A stretch of 24,099 bases of DNA from a virus: positions 1 to 24,099 of the IMG/VR virus record IMGVR_UViG_3300030406_001326; one strand, written 5' to 3'. Positions 1 through 23,090 of the stretch are shown here, piece after piece. The notes beneath the pieces are model-generated. The model was not told the DNA's origin and ran no database searches. It saw only the letters and a program-made list of their open reading frames with translations. Each line of letters begins with the position of its first letter. Position 1 is the first letter of the stretch. Made by a program: the position numbers and the translations under genes.

Positions 1-483
1 ATAATCACGAACTCGCCTTGCTTGGTCTTCTAATTCTTCTGTAGGTTCTCCAACAATAGTTGTTTTAACTGGACCACCTGATGGATATAGTTCTGCAATG
101 GCTTTCGCATTAAATTGTGTGGCGGCTTCCGCTATCATAGGGTGTACAACTGTACTTAAACCTCTAGTGGCTCTTTGTTCTTCTTCTTCTGTTAGACCAC
201 CATCAGGCTCTAATGTTTCTAAACCTTGTTTGTATCTACTTTCCCACTCTGAACGAGCCTCTTTATCACTTTCATATGCCTCTAATAAATCTTGGGCTTT
301 TCGTGAAAGTTCCTGTTCATCTATTTCCTCTGCAATGTTAGAATCATGTTCATCTGTTATTTCTACAATATCATCTAATGATTTATCTCCTATTAGAACT
401 TCATTGTTTTCTATTTCTTCAACTTCTAAGTTATCAGGTGGAGCACCTTCTTGAAATGGTATTACGTTTGGTTGTTTAGCCAT
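1..483 (-). CDS. Phage portal protein, N-terminal 161 residues (runs off the window)
   Basis: The gene starts at 483 (ATGGCTAAACAACC) and is still open at base 1, so only the N-terminus is present. The portal is the dodecameric ring at the capsid vertex through which DNA is packaged and ejected, and to which the tail attaches. After an acidic, probably disordered N-terminus (about residues 10-60) comes a segment characteristic of podovirus-type portals: an EEEEQRATRGLS stretch, then HPMIAEAATQFNAKAIAEL and YPSGGPVKT (about residues 107-147). The ATG lies inside the last codons of the large terminase gene (8-base overlap), the usual TerS-TerL-portal order. The assignment rests on recalled family resemblance plus synteny. 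Fold family and total length cannot be judged from this fragment. Confidence 0.82.
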   Translation of the reverse strand, partial: MAKQPNVIPFQEGAPPDNLEVEEIENNEVLIGDKSLDDIVEITDEHDSNIAEEIDEQELSRKAQDLLEAYESDKEARSEWESRYKQGLETLEPDGGLTEEEEQRATRGLSTVVHPMIAEAATQFNAKAIAELYPSGGPVKTTIVGEPTEELEDQARRVRDY

Positions 484-1984
484 ATAATGTTAACCTCTTT
501 TGTTCAGTATATTCATCATCTTCTGCATCACTTGAATGTGTGATAAACCAACCTTTTCTTAATCTTAACCATGCTTGTGTACATGTATCAACTATATCAT
601 CATTCTCACCAGTTGGAAAGGCAGAACATATATCTATTAAATCCTTTGCCCATCTTCTATTCTTTGGATACCATATTCTACCATCTTCTAACAAGGCAGA
701 ACTTGAATGTGCTCTTGCTTGTTTATCTCTATCAGGCATATATTCTAAAACAGGTATTCCTGCCATTCTTAAATCTTGTATCAAACTTTGACCACTTGCT
801 TTCTTTTCTATTAACACAATATCAGGTTCGTAATCTTCATAACTTTCTTGCGCTATTCTCCTGAGTTCAGGGTATGAAACCCTATCATACCACATATCAA
901 CAACGATAGCATTAAAATATCCATCTTGTTTAAATACTCCCCATGTTGTTCTTGCACTATAAGAACTGTTTTCCTTTGTAGAAAAAGCAGTATCATATGA
1001 TTGTATAAGATATTCTATATTAGGTAAATCATCATTTTCCCATGGTGACCACCATTCAGCTTTCAATATACCACCACCTTTTGGCATTGGTCTTTGTTGC
1101 AATTGACCAGATGCACCATAAGAACCTAAACTTTTTTCTAAATTCTGTAGTGTTGTTTCATCTATTCTATCTTTCCATAATAATTCGCCATCTTCTTTTC
1201 TTGGGTCTACAAAGCCTAATGTAGATTTTACTGGTGTAGGGTGGTTGTATTCATATCTAGCTGGTAAACATAAATGGTCCCAATCTTTGTATTCATTTGC
1301 TAAAATATGTCCTGTTAAGTCATTTTCATGTACTCTTTGCATTATAATTATAAATGCACCATTTTTAGGGTCATTTAATCGTGTTTGCATGGCTTGGTCC
1401 CACCAATCTAAAACACCTTGTCTTACAATACCTGATTCTGCTTCTCGTACATTGTGTGGGTCATCTATAAGAATAATATCTCCACCTTCTCCTGTTAATG
1501 CACCATCAACTGATGTAGCTATTCTTTGACCTGTTTGGTCATTTTCGAATCTTTGTTTTTGATTTTGGTCAGTTGTAAGATTGAATGTGCCACCAAAATA
1601 TTCTTTGTACCATTGACTTTCTATTAATCTTCTGCATTTAACACTATCTCTTATTGACAAAGACAAAGCATAACTTGCAAATAAAAACTTTTTTGTTGGG
1701 TCAATTGTCCATGTCCACGCAGGTAATGCTACAGATACAGATATGGATTTCATATGTCTTGGTGGTATATTTATAATTAATCTTTTAATATCGCCATTCA
1801 CGATTGCTTGTAAATGGTCTGATATAGCATCTATATGCCAATTATCATTGTATAATCTATTTGGCTCTATTGTTGACCATGCTTCTTTGATGAACAATTT
1901 GAGGGACCGTCGCATCTTCTCGGCTCTCACTTGGTTCAACGACAGCATGTTTAAGCACTCGTTCAATGGTGTTGAGGTCATCAT
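476..1984 (-). CDS. terL: Terminase large subunit (packaging ATPase and nuclease)
   Basis: This motor protein pumps DNA into the prohead and cuts concatemers. The N-terminal ATPase has the variant Walker A seen in this branch of terminases (IPPRHMKS, residues 73-80) and a Walker B ILIDDP (171-176). The C-terminal RNase H-like nuclease has candidate acidic residues at D331 (QSYDTAFS), E393 (IEKKASGQS) and D462/D463 (NDDIVDT). At 502 residues it has the normal length for the family. It overlaps the terS gene by 128 bases if the ATG at 1984 is used. Internal ATGs at 1948 and 1915 are alternatives, and 1915 has GAGAG upstream. I keep 1984 because the overlap is unusually G/C-rich, as expected if both frames are constrained. 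The start is uncertain; the function is not. Confidence 0.93.
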   Translation of the reverse strand: MMTSTPLNECLNMLSLNQVRAEKMRRSLKLFIKEAWSTIEPNRLYNDNWHIDAISDHLQAIVNGDIKRLIINIPPRHMKSISVSVALPAWTWTIDPTKKFLFASYALSLSIRDSVKCRRLIESQWYKEYFGGTFNLTTDQNQKQRFENDQTGQRIATSVDGALTGEGGDIILIDDPHNVREAESGIVRQGVLDWWDQAMQTRLNDPKNGAFIIIMQRVHENDLTGHILANEYKDWDHLCLPARYEYNHPTPVKSTLGFVDPRKEDGELLWKDRIDETTLQNLEKSLGSYGASGQLQQRPMPKGGGILKAEWWSPWENDDLPNIEYLIQSYDTAFSTKENSSYSARTTWGVFKQDGYFNAIVVDMWYDRVSYPELRRIAQESYEDYEPDIVLIEKKASGQSLIQDLRMAGIPVLEYMPDRDKQARAHSSSALLEDGRIWYPKNRRWAKDLIDICSAFPTGENDDIVDTCTQAWLRLRKGWFITHSSDAEDDEYTEQKRLTLYG

Positions 1985-2366
1985 CAGACAATTTGCTAAT
2001 ATCTAGCACCTTTCTTTCTTCTATGTTAATATCTTGAGTTATTTCGTGTCTATCTGTTTGTCCTAATATTTGTTTACCAAGCCATATTGCCATTGGTGTT
2101 GAATTGGTGTCATTCATTATTTGTATTTGTTTTCTTCTTAATGATAACATACCTTGAGCACGACCTTTTTGTATTGTTTTTCTTACATCTGCATCATTTG
2201 TATATTTATCTTCTAATGTTCTTAGTGGTATATCAAAATAATATGCTATCTCAGGCATTGTACAATTTAATCTGCATACCTTTTCTAATTCTATTAAATC
2301 TATTTCTGTTTTAGGTCTGCCGACTTTTTTCTTTTTAGATTTTTTTATTGGCTTAATTTCATTCAT
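1857..2366 (-). CDS. terS: Terminase small subunit
   Basis: A 169-residue DNA-recognition subunit of the packaging terminase, inferred from size, composition and position immediately before terL. The N-terminus is very basic (KKSKKKKVGRPK, about residues 8-19). It is followed by a helix-turn-helix-like part (LEKVCRLNCTMPEIAYYFDI, 27-46) and a helical segment with RRKQIQIMNDTNSTPMAIWL (77-96), which resembles the oligomerisation region of TerS proteins (GKQILG.TD is typical). The start at 2366 overlaps the stop of the upstream oxygenase-like gene as ATGA. The C-terminal tail (about 40 residues) is encoded in the region shared with terL. Confidence 0.8.
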   Translation of the reverse strand: MNEIKPIKKSKKKKVGRPKTEIDLIELEKVCRLNCTMPEIAYYFDIPLRTLEDKYTNDADVRKTIQKGRAQGMLSLRRKQIQIMNDTNSTPMAIWLGKQILGQTDRHEITQDINIEERKVLDISKLSDDDLNTIERVLKHAVVEPSESREDATVPQIVHQRSMVNNRAK

Positions 2367-2872
2367 ATTGCAAATATATCTTGGCTGTTTTCATTACATC
2401 TTAATTCCATGTTAAATGATATTCTTCTTTTATCTTCTGATATTCTAGGTAAATGATTAAGAAAATCAGGGAATATTAAAAAATCATAATCTTTTGGCTC
2501 TATGTAAAGATATTCTCCATTGTTTTCAAATTCTATGCCTTTTCCTTTTACTGTTTCTAAATATAAAACACTATTAATTGTAGAAGTGCGAATGTGATTA
2601 TGCCATTTGTTACCTTTTGCATAATCTTTATTTGTATAATAACACCATAATTCAAAATTTTTATCTCTTAATGTAAAATCATTTAGATGTTCTTTGCATT
2701 TATTTATAAACATATCATATAAAATGTTTGAATATTTAGAAAATACTTTGAAAGAATAATTTTGTGTTTTTGTTACAAGATGTATGTCTTTATATTGTAA
2801 TACATCAATAATCAAATCATCTATAATAGGTTTTAAATATTCTTCTACATTTAATTTTTTTATTGGTATCAT
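2363..2872 (-). CDS. Putative 2OG-Fe(II) oxygenase (PF13759-like)
   Basis: A 169-residue protein resembling the small phage and marine-bacterial Fe(II)/2-oxoglutarate oxygenases of the 2OG-FeII_Oxy_5 type. Visible hallmarks are KWHNHIRTSTINSVLYLET (residues 89-107), with H91 and H93 as candidate iron ligands, then FLIFPDFLNHLPR (131-143), where H140 would be the distal histidine, and DKRRISFNME (147-156), where an arginine would bind 2-oxoglutarate. I start at the ATG at 2872 because it forms an ATGA junction with the stop of the preceding gene; an in-frame ATG lies six codons upstream. It sits between another oxygenase-like gene and terS. The substrate is unknown: protein, nucleic acid or a small molecule are all possible. 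Confidence 0.62.
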   Translation of the reverse strand: MIPIKKLNVEEYLKPIIDDLIIDVLQYKDIHLVTKTQNYSFKVFSKYSNILYDMFINKCKEHLNDFTLRDKNFELWCYYTNKDYAKGNKWHNHIRTSTINSVLYLETVKGKGIEFENNGEYLYIEPKDYDFLIFPDFLNHLPRISEDKRRISFNMELRCNENSQDIFAI

Positions 2873-3459
2873 TTGTAATGAAAATCCCATAAATGACTAA
2901 ACCAACCTGTTGCTATAAATTTTTCTTCTTTGTCTGTAACTTGTCCACAATGTGCATGTGTCCAATCCGCAGGCCAAATTATAGTTTTTCCTTTTTCTGC
3001 TTTCTCTATGTGATTGTAATATTTAAATTTTGTACCACCATCTTCTACATCATTTAAATATGTCATAAACACTAAACATCTTTTCATTGAATCATTAAAT
3101 ATTCCTACTCTTTCACAATGTTCCTCTTTATAACCTTCTGATTTTTTATACCATTGTATGTTAAATGGTTCTATTAGTGCGAATGGGTGTATGTGTTTAA
3201 CTGATGGATATAATTGTGCATAATTGTCCATTGATTGTTCTAAATGTAAGGCATAATCTTTAAAAACATTAACTTTATTAATTGTAATGTCCTCAAGGTG
3301 TGGTAAATAACATACTAAATCTGTAGATGTTTTAATGTGTTCATTTAGTCCTGTTGCAGTATGTCCCTTAGCATGATTTTGTTTTTCTAACCAAAAAAAT
3401 TCTAACATTGCATCTACAATAAAATCAGGACATTGAGTTCTTCCAATAAAATCTACCAT
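2869..3459 (-). CDS. Putative prolyl-4-hydroxylase-like 2OG-Fe(II) oxygenase
   Basis: A 196-residue protein with the layout of P4H-like oxygenases. It has GYKEEHCERVG (residues 109-119), giving an H114-x-E116 metal motif in place of the more common HxD. The strand RCLVFMTYLNDVEDGGTKF (127-145) is typical of this family. WTHAHCGQVTDKEEKFIATGW (166-186) supplies the distal histidine (H168 or H170) and a basic residue (K180) for 2-oxoglutarate. It begins at 3459 after GGGAAATAA and ends in an ATGA overlap with the second oxygenase gene, so the pair is probably translationally coupled. The glycosyltransferase gene lies just upstream. The substrate cannot be told from sequence. Confidence 0.72.
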   Translation of the reverse strand: MVDFIGRTQCPDFIVDAMLEFFWLEKQNHAKGHTATGLNEHIKTSTDLVCYLPHLEDITINKVNVFKDYALHLEQSMDNYAQLYPSVKHIHPFALIEPFNIQWYKKSEGYKEEHCERVGIFNDSMKRCLVFMTYLNDVEDGGTKFKYYNHIEKAEKGKTIIWPADWTHAHCGQVTDKEEKFIATGWFSHLWDFHYK

Positions 3460-3489
3460 TTATTTCCCTTTTTTTATATACCACGAAAA

Positions 3490-4848
3490 TTATTGCATTT
3501 TCAACCAAAATGCTTTGTTTTTATGAAATTTTTGCCTATATCCTAATTCATATAATGCAAGATTAGCCTTAAACATTGGCATAGATTGTGTTTTACTAAG
3601 ACCACAATCCCTTATCATCTTTTCTACATCTTCTAATTCTAATTCTTTTCTGTTATTAATTACCTTTAGGAAACCCTGTTTGTTATGGTCTTTCATGCCT
3701 GTAAATACAGTTTTTCTTATTTGTGATTGAAATAACTCATGTAATTTATCCACATAATCATCTACATTGAATGTTTTTGCTCTCTCTTTATTTTGTTTGC
3801 CATATTTTTCATTAACATCTTTATTTTTAATAAGATGAATTAATTTTTCTTTCTGTTCATTTTCAGTATTAAATAATTGCCAATTATCTTTACCTAATAA
3901 TTCAGGCATGGTTGTCCTATTTGGAACTATTGTAGATAAACCATAAAACATACTCTCTAATATAGATATACAAAATGTTTCATGTTGCGAATTAAATGTA
4001 TTTGCATGACATTTAGGTATTTCATCAAGATATAATTGTTTTGTAGGTAAATCTTTGACCATAACATAAGGCTTTTCATTAATAATATTAATTCTATCGC
4101 CTCCTGCCTTAGTAACTAATACATTAAAATCATGTTTTTCTGCATATAATTGGTCAAATATTTCAAATGTAGTTCTCCAATTTTTATAATCTTGAAATCT
4201 ATGATTAAATATAAATGTAAATTTTTTATATTTTTCTACATTTTTATATTTATAATTTTTGTCAAAGAAACCAAATTTTAATACTTTCCTTTTTTCACTA
4301 ATCTTTTTTTCTAAACTTGGTAAATATTCTCTTATATTATCTAATGTCATATTCCAACAATGGTCAGAATTAAATAAATTTACATCAGCACAATAATCTC
4401 CACATAATTGCATAAATACAAAATGCAGATTTGGTTCTAATGGATATGGTAGGCTTTCATGTAATATATAATGATGTTGATTAACAACAGTAGGAACCAT
4501 ATGAAAATTTGCCATGAAATATTTTAATTGTGGTGCTAATTCAGGTATTTGGTTCCAAATCAGGTATGGTCCATATGTATCATATATTTTTTTAATAACA
4601 AATGTATCAAAATGGATATTATTTTGTTTTTTACCTTGTGGTATATTTTGAGGTATTCTCATTATATTTGGTAATTTAAAAAACCCATCATCATAATATC
4701 TAAAGCCTTTTGACGCAGGAAATGGCATTAAAAATGAATATTCAGGATATTTTTCATTAAATTTTGTAATTACAGAAGATAAGAACACATAATTACTATC
4801 AGAATTAATTGTTTGTACTGACCACATAGGGTTTACAAATATAATCAT
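3490..4848 (-). CDS. GT-B glycosyltransferase with a C-terminal extension
   Basis: A 452-residue protein with the signature of retaining GT-B (GT4-like) glycosyltransferases. It has FIFNHRFQDYKNW (213-225), an LVTKAGG-type strand (244-250) and an E-x7-E nucleotide-sugar motif (E290 and E298, HETFCISILES), followed by YGLSTIVPNRTTMPELLG (302-319). These enzymes transfer a sugar from a nucleotide donor to an acceptor. Residues from about 391 to 452 lie beyond the catalytic domain and look like a small winged-helix: helices, then MFKANLALYELGYR and a basic KFHKNKAFWLK hairpin. That tail could bind nucleic acid, which is inference. The gene lies between an unknown gene and two oxygenase-like genes, suggesting a shared modification pathway. 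Confidence 0.75.
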   Translation of the reverse strand: MIIFVNPMWSVQTINSDSNYVFLSSVITKFNEKYPEYSFLMPFPASKGFRYYDDGFFKLPNIMRIPQNIPQGKKQNNIHFDTFVIKKIYDTYGPYLIWNQIPELAPQLKYFMANFHMVPTVVNQHHYILHESLPYPLEPNLHFVFMQLCGDYCADVNLFNSDHCWNMTLDNIREYLPSLEKKISEKRKVLKFGFFDKNYKYKNVEKYKKFTFIFNHRFQDYKNWRTTFEIFDQLYAEKHDFNVLVTKAGGDRINIINEKPYVMVKDLPTKQLYLDEIPKCHANTFNSQHETFCISILESMFYGLSTIVPNRTTMPELLGKDNWQLFNTENEQKEKLIHLIKNKDVNEKYGKQNKERAKTFNVDDYVDKLHELFQSQIRKTVFTGMKDHNKQGFLKVINNRKELELEDVEKMIRDCGLSKTQSMPMFKANLALYELGYRQKFHKNKAFWLKMQ

Positions 4849-4851
4849 AAT

Positions 4852-5556
4852 TTATTCCACTAATTCTTTTTTTATTTCTTTTATTACAAGTTTGTTTGTT
4901 TTTGTTTCGATAAATCTATTATATTTCTTTATTAATGGTATATTTTTCCACCACTCATTTGTTGTAGCACATGTATTTGCTATTTTTTTCAATGTCTTGT
5001 TTAAATTAAATCTTTTTAATTTTATTTTGTCATCTGTTAAAAATATAAAATATGCCATATGTTCATGTTCTTTTATTTTAAAATAGTTTCTTTGATTAAT
5101 TAATAACATTTCAAGATTTATCGGTCTAAACCACTTTGATATGTTAAATTTGCCGGGTATGACCAAACCGTAATCTGTATAATTTGTTTCTGAGAAAAAT
5201 GGAGATGTTAACATTATTTGTAAATCTTCTTCACAAAAGAAAATATAACTATTGCCATAAATCATTGTGTCATCAATGTATGTTATTACGTTTGAATTTT
5301 CAGATAAAAACTTAATCTTTTTATTTTGTATCTCAAATTCTGTAGATATAGGATTTTCTACATAATAAATATTTTTGGCTAAATTTGAAAATGCAGGACA
5401 TCTTGTTAAATTTTTAATTCTAACACCATTTCTGTTTGATACATCATTACTAATTTTGTTCAATAATTTATTAGGCTCTAAAAACATTATATTACAATGA
5501 TGAGTATCATCTTCATAACCAATTACTGGTGCCCAATAAACTGTTTTTGTACTCAT
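4852..5556 (-). CDS. Unknown phage protein (234 residues)
   Basis: I cannot assign a function. The protein begins MSTKTVYWAPVI and has a conserved-looking NLTRCPAFSNLAKNIYYVE stretch (about residues 49-67). A similar short block (RCPAF...N.Y.) appears, as far as I recall, in uncharacterised proteins of other marine phages. There is no signal peptide or membrane segment; the C-terminus is lysine-rich (about 185-234). It overlaps the ParB-like gene by four bases (ATGA) and ends three bases before the glycosyltransferase start, so the three are almost certainly cotranscribed. Being sandwiched between these enzymes suggests a role in the same cassette, for example as an accessory or acceptor-binding subunit, but nothing in the sequence shows this. 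Confidence 0.7.
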   Translation of the reverse strand: MSTKTVYWAPVIGYEDDTHHCNIMFLEPNKLLNKISNDVSNRNGVRIKNLTRCPAFSNLAKNIYYVENPISTEFEIQNKKIKFLSENSNVITYIDDTMIYGNSYIFFCEEDLQIMLTSPFFSETNYTDYGLVIPGKFNISKWFRPINLEMLLINQRNYFKIKEHEHMAYFIFLTDDKIKLKRFNLNKTLKKIANTCATTNEWWKNIPLIKKYNRFIETKTNKLVIKEIKKELVE

Positions 5557-6143
5557 TGATTCAACAATCTTTCTAGTGCTTCCTCATTTGTAGATACACT
5601 TGAATTGTCATCTATATATTGATTTAATTTTGCCATAATTTCTTGATATTTATCTAAATCTTCCCATGAAAACACAATTGATTTTGAATATTTATCTTGT
5701 TCAACCACTAAATCATTAAATTCTAAATCATCATTTTCTGTATCAAAATCTAATAAATTTTCTAATTCTGATTTTTCAAAGCCTGTTAATTCTAAATCAA
5801 ATTGTAAGTCTAAAAGTTCTTTTAATTCATCTCCTAGCAGGAAATAATCCCATTCTGAATCTTCATTTAATCTATTATCAGCAATTCTTAATGCTTTTAT
5901 TTGTTCATCATTTAATTTTTGTGTAACAACTGGTACATTTTTTAAACCTAATTCTTTTGATGCCATTAATCTTGTATGACCAATTATTACAACATCTTTT
6001 TCATCAACAACAATTGGTTGTGTAAATCCATATTCTTTTATTGATTGTGCAATCTTTCCAACTTTCTGATTTTTTCTTGGGTTTTTTTCGAATGGTATTA
6101 ATTCATTAATAGGTCGCATTTTAACTTGCATATCAATGTTCAT
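5553..6143 (-). CDS. ParB/Srx-fold protein (stand-alone ParB N-terminal domain)
   Basis: Residues 7-97 form a clear ParB-like domain: MRPINELIPFEKNPR at the start, SIKEYGFTQPIVVDE (34-48), the signature VVIIGHTRLMASKELG (51-66), then VPVV and DEQIKALRIADNRLNE. In phages this domain often precedes a DNA methyltransferase; here the protein stops at 196 residues with an acidic tail (about 100-196) and no methylase motifs. ParB/Srx-fold proteins can be CTPases, nucleases or kinases, often acting on DNA. The start at 6143 is fixed by a leader GGAGAAAACAG immediately before the ATG, a variant of the motif shared by many genes here. It is coupled to the unknown gene downstream by ATGA. Confidence 0.8.
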   Translation of the reverse strand: MNIDMQVKMRPINELIPFEKNPRKNQKVGKIAQSIKEYGFTQPIVVDEKDVVIIGHTRLMASKELGLKNVPVVTQKLNDEQIKALRIADNRLNEDSEWDYFLLGDELKELLDLQFDLELTGFEKSELENLLDFDTENDDLEFNDLVVEQDKYSKSIVFSWEDLDKYQEIMAKLNQYIDDNSSVSTNEEALERLLNQ

Positions 6144-12728: not shown

Positions 12729-12940
12729 TGGGTATGAGTTCATATATTTTAGACCTTGATGATAAATTTATTGAAGAAAAATTACCTTCTATTTGTCTTA
12801 ATTCTGAAAGCCTTTTAGAAGCAATAGACAAGGCAAAAAAATTAAGAGATAGAGAATATTCACATTTATGTTCAGAAGAAGAACTTTGTGAATATATGCC
12901 TGATGTTTGGAATATTGTATGGGAGAAATATAATGTCTAA
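12728..12940 (+). CDS. Small hypothetical protein (70 residues)
   Basis: An acidic, soluble-looking 70-residue protein (MGMSSYILDLDDKFIEEKLP, later CSEEELCEYMPDVW). It starts at 12728 in a TAATG overlap, with GGGAGGT (12715-12721) at good spacing, and its 3' end overlaps the start of the large unknown gene by eight bases. The repeated coupling means 12525-14177 is probably one translational unit. There is no known domain and no transmembrane segment. Confidence 0.65.
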   Translation: MGMSSYILDLDDKFIEEKLPSICLNSESLLEAIDKAKKLRDREYSHLCSEEELCEYMPDVWNIVWEKYNV

Positions 12941-14177
12941 GCCTATTTTATGTTCTGAAATAATATCAGCATTTACTCAACCAAAAAGAGCACTTGCCCT
13001 CTATCAAGGGGGCAGGATTGCTGATGATATGATTAGAAAAAAACAAGCAGATTTAGTTAAATCTCAAAAATTTGTTTTAAGTAACTCATTAATAGAAAAT
13101 GCGTTTGATGTATCTATGCAAAAACCCTCTATTTTATTAGAGATGATGGAAAGTGTTAAGATGCCTTTTGATAATATCTTTATAGAATGGAATGAAGAAC
13201 ATAGACAACAATATATGAAACATTTTTGGAAAGATAAGACAAATGCTTTCAAATTCGACCCTACTGAGGATTATCCTGAGAGAGTTGGTTATCATATAAA
13301 TAAATATACAGACCCAATGGACGATAGTTATTATTTATATGAGTCTTATTTCTTCATTAAAGATTTACATGGAGAAGATTATCATAAATACATCAACAAC
13401 AAATTCTATTCTCCTACTATGTGTATGATTATACATGAAGAAGAACCAAATTTTGAAGATGAATTTGCAAAAGTAGAACTTCTTGATGAAATACCAAAAG
13501 ATTCAAGAATATCTGACCCACTTGAATTAAAAGCAAAATGTATTGGGTTAGGTGCTCAATTGTTAGGAAATTGGTATTTTCTAAAATATTGTCCTGAATC
13601 TTTGCATCTTAAATATGCAATAGAAAAAGAAAATCATATGCCACATTTAATTAAAATGATTAATTATAATAAATCGCATGAATTTAATTGTTTTAAAGAA
13701 ATTTGTTACAGATTATCCTCTGCTCAATCTGCATCAATGCATTGGCAATTACCTGAATGGAAATTCAAAGAGGGTTATACTGGTGAAGAAATGGCATTGC
13801 ATGAACAACAATGGGTTACTTCAACTCAAGGAGATGCTAGATTTATGATTGCTTTGTTTTCATTGTTAAATCAAAATCTTACAACACAAACTATAATAAG
13901 ACCTGATAATAAAATTATACATACAAAATTAGGAAAAAGAGTACCTAGAAATGATTATAAGGTTCTTAATATTGATTTGACAAAGAATAAGATTAGAAAA
14001 ATTTATAAATCTACATTCAAAGGCAAAGGCAATCCTAAAAGACAGCATGAAAGACGAGGTCATTTCAGACATTTAAGAGATATACATGGTAATCTTAAAA
14101 GAAAGATATGGATTAAATCATGTATTGCCGGTTCTGCTGAACATGGTGTTCTAATGAAAGATTATAACCTTAAATAA
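12933..14177 (+). CDS. Large uncharacterised early phage protein (414 residues)
   Basis: The largest gene of the rightward block, and I cannot assign a function. The start at 12933 (MSKPILCSE) has the leader variant GGGAGAAATATA. The body (1-340) is mixed alpha/beta without catalytic motifs that I can see; residues 201-260 carry scattered cysteines (C203, C220, C253, C258). The C-terminus (about 366-412) is a basic module: KRQHERRGHFRHLRDIHG, then KRKIWIKSCIAG and HGVLMKDY. Similar HxxRGHxR...W modules end many uncharacterised phage proteins, as far as I recall, and would suit nucleic-acid or ribosome binding. It is followed by a non-coding gap with a promoter. It could be a host-takeover or replication factor. 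Confidence 0.75.
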   Translation: MSKPILCSEIISAFTQPKRALALYQGGRIADDMIRKKQADLVKSQKFVLSNSLIENAFDVSMQKPSILLEMMESVKMPFDNIFIEWNEEHRQQYMKHFWKDKTNAFKFDPTEDYPERVGYHINKYTDPMDDSYYLYESYFFIKDLHGEDYHKYINNKFYSPTMCMIIHEEEPNFEDEFAKVELLDEIPKDSRISDPLELKAKCIGLGAQLLGNWYFLKYCPESLHLKYAIEKENHMPHLIKMINYNKSHEFNCFKEICYRLSSAQSASMHWQLPEWKFKEGYTGEEMALHEQQWVTSTQGDARFMIALFSLLNQNLTTQTIIRPDNKIIHTKLGKRVPRNDYKVLNIDLTKNKIRKIYKSTFKGKGNPKRQHERRGHFRHLRDIHGNLKRKIWIKSCIAGSAEHGVLMKDYNLK

Positions 14178-22655: not shown

Positions 22656-23090
22656 TTATGCCTCCACGAATATTGAGCCTGCTTTTACAAAACCCAATCT
22701 TTCAAAAAATTTATCTTTTCTATTTAAATCTCCAGAAAAAATATGACCTAATCTTATTTTTAGTTTAACATCTTTTGCTGTTTTGATATAGGTTTGTAAC
22801 AATTTTTTTGCTACATCACTTTTCCTTTGTTCTTTAAATACATAAAACCAAGTATCTGCTATATATTTATCTTCACTCCACCAATCTTGACATATTTGTC
22901 CTGCAATAGAGCCTTGAATTTTGTTGTCTTTTACACATACAAAAACTAAACCATTATGAACTAAATCATTAATCTTATTTATTAATTTTAATGTGTTAAT
23001 TTTTGGCACTTCTATTTCTGTCTCCTTATGCATTTGATCTAACATTAATGCCAATGCAGAAATATCTATAACTGTGGCTCGACGTATCAT
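22656..23090 (-). CDS. GNAT-family N-acetyltransferase
   Basis: A 144-residue acetyl-CoA-dependent acetyltransferase. The fold order is clear: MIRRATVIDISALALMLDQM (helix after strand 1), FVCVKDNKIQGSIAGQI (50-66, strands 2-4), YVFKEQRKSDVAKKLLQTYI (83-102; QRKSDVA stands for the acetyl-CoA pyrophosphate loop, normally Q/RxxGxG/A, here with a serine where the first glycine normally lies), then KFFERLGFVKAG (127-138), the typical GNAT end. It has ATGA coupling with the preceding gene and its stop abuts the next start. GNAT genes among virion genes are known in marine phages; the acceptor is unknown. It could acetylate a virion or host protein. Confidence 0.85.
   Translation of the reverse strand: MIRRATVIDISALALMLDQMHKETEIEVPKINTLKLINKINDLVHNGLVFVCVKDNKIQGSIAGQICQDWWSEDKYIADTWFYVFKEQRKSDVAKKLLQTYIKTAKDVKLKIRLGHIFSGDLNRKDKFFERLGFVKAGSIFVEA

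Follow-up and report, generated by a model that had tools for sequence, protein, structure and literature searches.

A ParB-linked glycosyltransferase of GT4 type ahead of the terminase genes in marine phages: a putative DNA-glycosylation module

Several phage systems are comparable with the locus described here. The alpha- and beta-glucosyltransferases of T4 (PF11440 and PF09198) are glycosyltransferases (GTs) of the GT-B type. The TAGT family (PF20691), which is that of the T6 beta-glucosyl-HMC-alpha-glucosyltransferase, contains DNA glycosyltransferases with a GT-A fold; solitary TAGTs of unknown substrate are present in 288 out of 753 phage genomes (PMC13216743). ParBc proteins adjoin the phage genes for cytosine carboxymethylation, where their role has been called unknown (PMC12783734). 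We have studied a ParB-GT pair found in a 24-kb virus record of IMG/VR (IMGVR_UViG_3300030406_001326), whose 24,099 nucleotides will be called the window. The position of the pair before the terminase and its link to ParB are already of a known kind, but the GT family found there, of GT4 type with a predicted winged helix, appears to be new. A limited literature search gave no description of this family in such a position, nor of its exchange with TAGT.

On the minus strand of the window the gene order is ParB, D, GT, 2OG-B, 2OG-A, terS and terL. Gene D has no assigned function; 2OG-A and 2OG-B (A and B below) resemble 2-oxoglutarate (2OG) Fe(II) oxygenases. The first five genes have a Toprim/DnaB primase-helicase on one side and the terminase genes terS and terL on the other. 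ParB and D overlap by 4 bp, B and A by 22 bp, A and terS by 4 bp; D is separated from the GT by 3 bp and the GT from B by about 30 bp. An original prediction made on this DNA had described five contiguous, mostly overlapping open reading frames (ORFs) between replication and terminase genes, and this description is borne out, coordinates included. The five genes are nevertheless not one cassette: ParB and the GT are the constant pair ahead of the terminase in 13 other IMG/VR contigs with this GT, while the 2OG genes and D are optional.

This is apparent from a search of viral contigs for the GT, which gave 14 other loci (L002–L015). Three of them (L013–L015) are cut, and L007 and L022 are one contig. 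Wherever a locus extends far enough to include both genes, ParB stands directly ahead of the GT, or of D and the GT, and terS comes after the GT wherever the contig reaches it. L012 retains ParB (53% identical) and the GT (71%) despite a terS which is only 35% identical. D is found beside the GT only in the window and in its sister contig, L007/L022. Only L002, L005, L006 and L014 have a B-like 2OG after the GT; it is about 54% identical to B, in loci whose terL is 97% identical. Gene A has no counterpart in the 14 loci, and there is no oxygenase between the GT and terS in L003, L004, L007–L011, L012 and L015. The record behind L010 (G001) has 53,013 bp; we treat it as complete because its ends overlap (608 bp at 90.7%) and its structural genes follow the order of roseophage CRP-901. 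It has ParB and the GT directly before terS, with D and 2OG absent there; its sole PF13759 oxygenase sits in the virion module.

The strongest single point in favour of DNA as the target comes from three sister phages (L091, L092 and L094). Their terL is 85–87% and their terS 70–71% identical to those of the window, and the primase-helicase of L092 and L094 is 79–80% identical. Their gene order is ParB, TAGT, terS. In L091 the TAGT match has E 8e-42 and that to phrog_842 (beta-glucosyl-HMC-alpha-glucosyltransferase) E 3e-45; in L094 the TAGT was assigned by sequence cluster. Within a single lineage, therefore, the place after ParB is filled either by the window GT or by TAGT, an unrelated and already known family of phage DNA GTs. 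Both are phage GTs placed between ParB and terS, and no Tet_JBP was found in the sister contigs; they differ in that the window GT is of GT4 type (putatively GT-B) and has a predicted winged helix, whereas TAGT has a GT-A fold. No TAGT was found in the window or in its close GT relatives.

A profile search of viral contigs for ParB shows what other phages keep in this interval. We considered the 80 best-scoring loci, which are not a random sample and include near relatives. Standalone ParB proteins, taken as ORFs of at most 240 aa, occur in 29 loci; one of them (L071) is L012 again, and the 28 others were counted. Four stop at ParB, in six terS comes immediately after it, and in 18 a different gene follows. 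This gene is of a DNA-modification type in 16 of the 18, a count which takes in near-identical sister contigs as well as FkbM-, queuine-transglycosylase- and TAGT-like families assigned by sequence only. It is a TAGT in L082, L091, L092, L094 and L117, a Tet_JBP protein in L073, L121, L125 and L142, a C5 methyltransferase in L072 and L123, an N6/N4 methyltransferase in L103 and L135, Mom in L076 and L080, and a queuine-transglycosylase-like protein with a Vut_1 transporter in L095. The Tet_JBP protein is accompanied by a TAGT in L073, by a GT-like protein in L121 and by an amidotransferase in L125. The other two loci are L077, with a PAPS reductase, and L130, which has no assigned next gene. 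As a control we took 43 ORFs upstream of ParB: they belong to replication and nuclease families, with no modifying enzyme except for one ArdC-type anti-restriction domain.

Named phages show a similar arrangement. A tblastn search with the window ParB matched 455 phage records. Proteins annotated as DNA methylases, with ParB as their N-terminal domain, are frequent among the top matches. Among eleven named phages ParB lies a few genes before the annotated terminase in nine, the exceptions being those of Rhizobium and Ruminococcus; in some of them it is a ParB-methylase fusion that sits there. Psychrobacter phage Y8A has the order ParB-Mom-terS-terL (Mom PF25680, E 2e-55). In cyanophage MED4-117 the order is ParB, FkbM methyltransferase, Tet_JBP protein (E 3.5e-6, below the cut-off of Pfam) and terminase. 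Judging from its match to phrog_498 (DNA methyltransferase, E 4e-45), the window ParB is related, as a standalone protein, to the N-terminal domain found in the phage ParB-DNA methyltransferase fusions. It shares with them the ParB domain and the genomic position before the terminase, but it stands alone, with a glycosyltransferase in place of the methyltransferase as its partner.

Some of these loci have peculiarities of their own. L095 (1535–2967) has between ParB and terS the queuine-transglycosylase-like protein (phrog_887, E 9e-31) and a transporter of Vut_1/YhhQ type; it is a candidate locus for 7-deazaguanine DNA modification which would import its precursor. In L077 (4590–6525) ParB is followed by the PAPS reductase, a second ParB-like protein and a GNAT protein, before terS. 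The GT-like protein of L121 (3671–4642) comes after Tet_JBP and has no Pfam or PHROG match; no homology with the window GT was detected, and it is possibly another unnamed family of DNA glycosyltransferases. L125 (5507–8382) and L142 (2911–5142) have ParB and Tet_JBP, then a GATase_6 amidotransferase and further uncharacterised proteins: they are candidates for an amide-bearing base modification. A short ParB of about 151–155 aa stands directly before terS, with no partner enzyme, in L078, L085, L087, L088, L114 and L116; this ParB might serve some separate function close to the terminase, or else the slot may simply be unoccupied.

The GT clears the cut-off of PF00534 (Glycos_transf_1) with 34.3 versus 26.4 bits. 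The hallmarks of GT4 enzymes, EX7E (E290 and E298) and R217/K222, are invariant in all eight aligned relatives. The ratio of nonsynonymous to synonymous substitutions (dN/dS) is 0.04–0.19, which corresponds to purifying selection and thus indicates a working protein, not a chance ORF. Residues from about 383 to 452 are the sole part of the GT which is well modelled by AlphaFold (eight sequences); their predicted order, helix-strand-helix-helix-strand-strand, is that of a winged helix. The structural matches of this domain, with Z about 5, include the winged helices of Fur, MecI, BlaI, FoxP and Sso10a; taken alone it has no match in Pfam. Relatives of the GT are rare: no close one was matched in the phage collection, none was confirmed among 84,980 genomes of bacteria and archaea, and a broader scan of IMG/VR by profile added no loci to those already known. 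A sequence search of the PDB gave nothing significant. All features of the locus are collected in Table 1.

Table 1. Features of the ParB-to-terminase region in the window
Feature	Position	Strand	Evidence and remarks
ParB (E), ParB_N-fold, 196 aa	5553..6143	-	PF02195 E 2e-10; phrog_620 E 4e-49; first gene of the putative module
D, phrog_17480 protein without assigned function, 234 aa	4852..5556	-	Predicted dUTPase fold; optional
GT, GT4-type glycosyltransferase, 452 aa	3490..4848	-	PF00534 E 2e-8; core of the putative module
EX7E motif of the GT, residues 290-298	3955..3981	-	Alignment of relatives
Predicted winged-helix domain, C-terminus of the GT, residues about 383-452	3493..3702	-	AlphaFold block, pLDDT 62-86
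B, 2OG-Fe(II) oxygenase, P4H-like, 196 aa	2869..3459	-	PF13640 E 2e-7; phrog_61 E 5e-27; optional
A, PF13759/phrog_81-like 2OG-Fe(II) oxygenase, 175 aa	2363..2890	-	phrog_81 E 1.5e-10; optional
terS	1857..2366	-	phrog_309 E 2.5e-5; directly downstream of A
terL	476..1984	-	PF17289, phrog_38

From this context we consider it rather probable that ParB and the GT form a phage DNA-glycosylation module, with a new GT family and optional accessory genes. ParB would mark a pre-terminase position where phages keep exchangeable DNA-modifying enzymes. The GT, a retaining enzyme of GT4 type with a winged helix, would transfer a sugar to the DNA of the phage itself, late in replication and just ahead of packaging, and the sugar would protect this DNA against host nucleases. 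ParB may bind DNA or a nucleotide and help the GT to find its substrate or to work along it. A, B and D would be optional accessories, taken from the pool of 2OG, halogenase and dUTPase-fold genes of marine phages, and might alter the base or the sugar further. Two suggestions of the original prediction thus gain ground: the winged helix on the GT is supported by the AlphaFold model and its structural matches to DNA binders, and DNA as the target has strong contextual support from the slot and from the TAGT exchange in sister phages.

The acceptor may be provided either by a host activity or by an unrecognised phage gene, or else an unmodified base may be used directly. In the window phage a hydroxyl could come from A and B, but these cannot be its general source. 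Most ParB-GT loci have no 2OG in this position. Compared with the T4 enzymes, the window GT may likewise be a GT-B enzyme and would act on phage DNA, but it matches neither family, and no gene making 5-hydroxymethylcytosine (5hmC) was found in its relatives. A thymidylate-synthase homologue, which could supply 5hmC or 5-hydroxymethyluracil, is absent from 7 records, and Tet_JBP is absent from 5 records of the window lineage. A more specific version, possible if doubtful, is that the GT is an independently evolved DNA glycosyltransferase, with a GT4 core, its own winged-helix reader and ParB as a partner. It would add a sugar without a phage TET/JBP or 5-hydroxymethyl-pyrimidine pathway, the acceptor being either an unmodified base or a base that some unrecognised enzyme has hydroxylated.

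Several points weigh against DNA as the target, besides the composition of the slot count. The argument from the slot is one of guilt by association. The window GT fits no known family of phage DNA GTs in sequence comparisons, with no match to PF20691, PF11440 or PF09198 at E up to 1. What few sequence matches it has are to GT4 enzymes with sugar, lipid or malate substrates. The body of the GT has a mean AlphaFold pLDDT of 42, too poor for a fold comparison with DNA GTs. The complete relative has no Tet_JBP, thymidylate synthase or TAGT, that is to say, no recognised acceptor maker.

The main rival explanation appears unlikely to us: the GT would modify a glycan or a protein of the host or virion surface, for superinfection exclusion, receptor masking or virion glycosylation, and its adjacency to ParB would reflect a shared insertion hot spot and not a pathway. 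The members of GT4 are mostly glycan and lipid enzymes, and the NCBIfam models nearest to the GT are BshA, PglJ and EpsE. The GTs of marine phages are commonly taken to act on surface glycans, and those of Pelagimyophages have been interpreted as O-chain modifiers (PMC7029224). An acceptor-making enzyme was not found in the records examined, which also fits a surface target. On the other hand, such a target does not agree with the strict pairing with ParB, with the replacement by TAGT in sister phages or with the C-terminal winged helix, and the neighbours in the slot are DNA-modifying and not envelope genes.

A third explanation is close to the original prediction, which had proposed that the five genes hydroxylate and then glycosylate a target: A and/or B would hydroxylate a DNA base, the GT would glycosylate the new hydroxyl and D would guard the nucleotide pool. 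The genes overlap, and B is above the PF13640 cut-off with its iron triad (H114-x-E116...H170) and 2OG-anchoring K180 present in the alignment. A B-like 2OG right after the GT is found in four other loci, and pairs of TET/JBP and GT fill the same slot in L073 and L121. In these pairs ParB, oxygenase and GT also precede the terminase, but the oxygenases of the window resemble PF13640 and PF13759, lie after the GT and can be dispensed with. A stays under the PF13759 cut-off (19.1 versus 27 bits) and shows by eye an HxH ... H ... R motif. Neither A nor B, nor anything else in the window, matches Tet_JBP (PF12851) at E up to 1, which confirms the earlier remark that the oxygenases are not TET/JBP-like. 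As a general scheme the five-gene pathway is rejected: most relatives with a ParB-GT pair lack A, B and D, and B changes or is exchanged much more rapidly than the genes around it. On the whole we regard it as quite improbable. Relatives of B and D occur moreover in clusters without ParB or the window GT.

These clusters were found through D, which has relatives at 32 loci (L016–L047) in other marine phages. Its neighbours there are a tryptophan halogenase (PF04820), a NodU-type carbamoyltransferase (PF16861), several PF13759/PF13640 2OGs and a heme oxygenase; some loci carry B-like 2OGs next to D. Such marine T4-like clusters are the source of the relatives of D and B, but no ParB or window GT was found in them. 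They have been described as devoted to polysaccharide or secondary-metabolite decoration (PMC7824862). The D family has the signature PGKFNISKWFRP. D itself has no Pfam match, and PF00692 is matched weakly by one of 18 relatives (E 0.016). Its AlphaFold model (pLDDT 81) matches dUTPases in all 50 PDB entries listed, with Z 7.7–8.6 over about 115 residues and a root-mean-square deviation of about 3.5, and viral dUTPases in BFVD (E about 1e-4). D is therefore likely to have a dUTPase fold, at middling Z, with an extra helical C-terminus. It is unlikely to act as an ordinary dUTPase, because the canonical motif III (GxIDxxY, with the catalytic Asp) is absent from all 17 relatives. A second protein of the D clusters (L034, 15265–16002, and relatives) resembles D by eye.

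That the GT glycosylates a modified tRNA of queuosine type instead of DNA is hardly credible: its residues 118–192 match the N-terminal domain of tRNA-queuosine mannosyltransferase (QTMAN_N) with E 0.0039, but this is below the curated Pfam cut-off (17.5 versus 25 bits) and one among several weak GT-B matches, and no tRNA-modification genes adjoin the GT in its relatives.

The terL of the window is 73% identical to those of roseophages CRP-901 and CRP-902, which by this gene places the window phage near them; their hosts belong to the Roseobacter CHAB-I-5 lineage (PMC10149686). Neither ParB nor the GT is present in their annotations, and on the stretch from the primase to the terminase side of their circular map they carry a DNA methyltransferase. 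Two other genes of the window deserve mention. An early protein of 429 aa (12888–14174) is conserved across the lineage and has no Pfam or PHROG match. A GNAT acetyltransferase (22656–23090) lies amid the virion genes and is also conserved in the 53-kb relative and in CRP-901.

If the window GT acts on DNA, phage DNA glycosyltransferases would have a further independent origin, beside the alpha/beta enzymes and TAGT (PMC13216743). It would lie in marine phages that have not been cultured but have relatives among the roseophage isolates. The exchange of GT and TAGT, at one site and in one lineage, is a natural experiment. The identity of the acceptor becomes a directly testable question, because there is a complete relative without a recognised acceptor-making gene, and solitary TAGTs exist elsewhere. 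New DNA-modifying enzymes can, it seems, be found by position alone in the interval from ParB to the terminase: here it has yielded methyltransferases, Mom, TET/JBP proteins with their partners, TAGT and queuine-transglycosylase-like genes.

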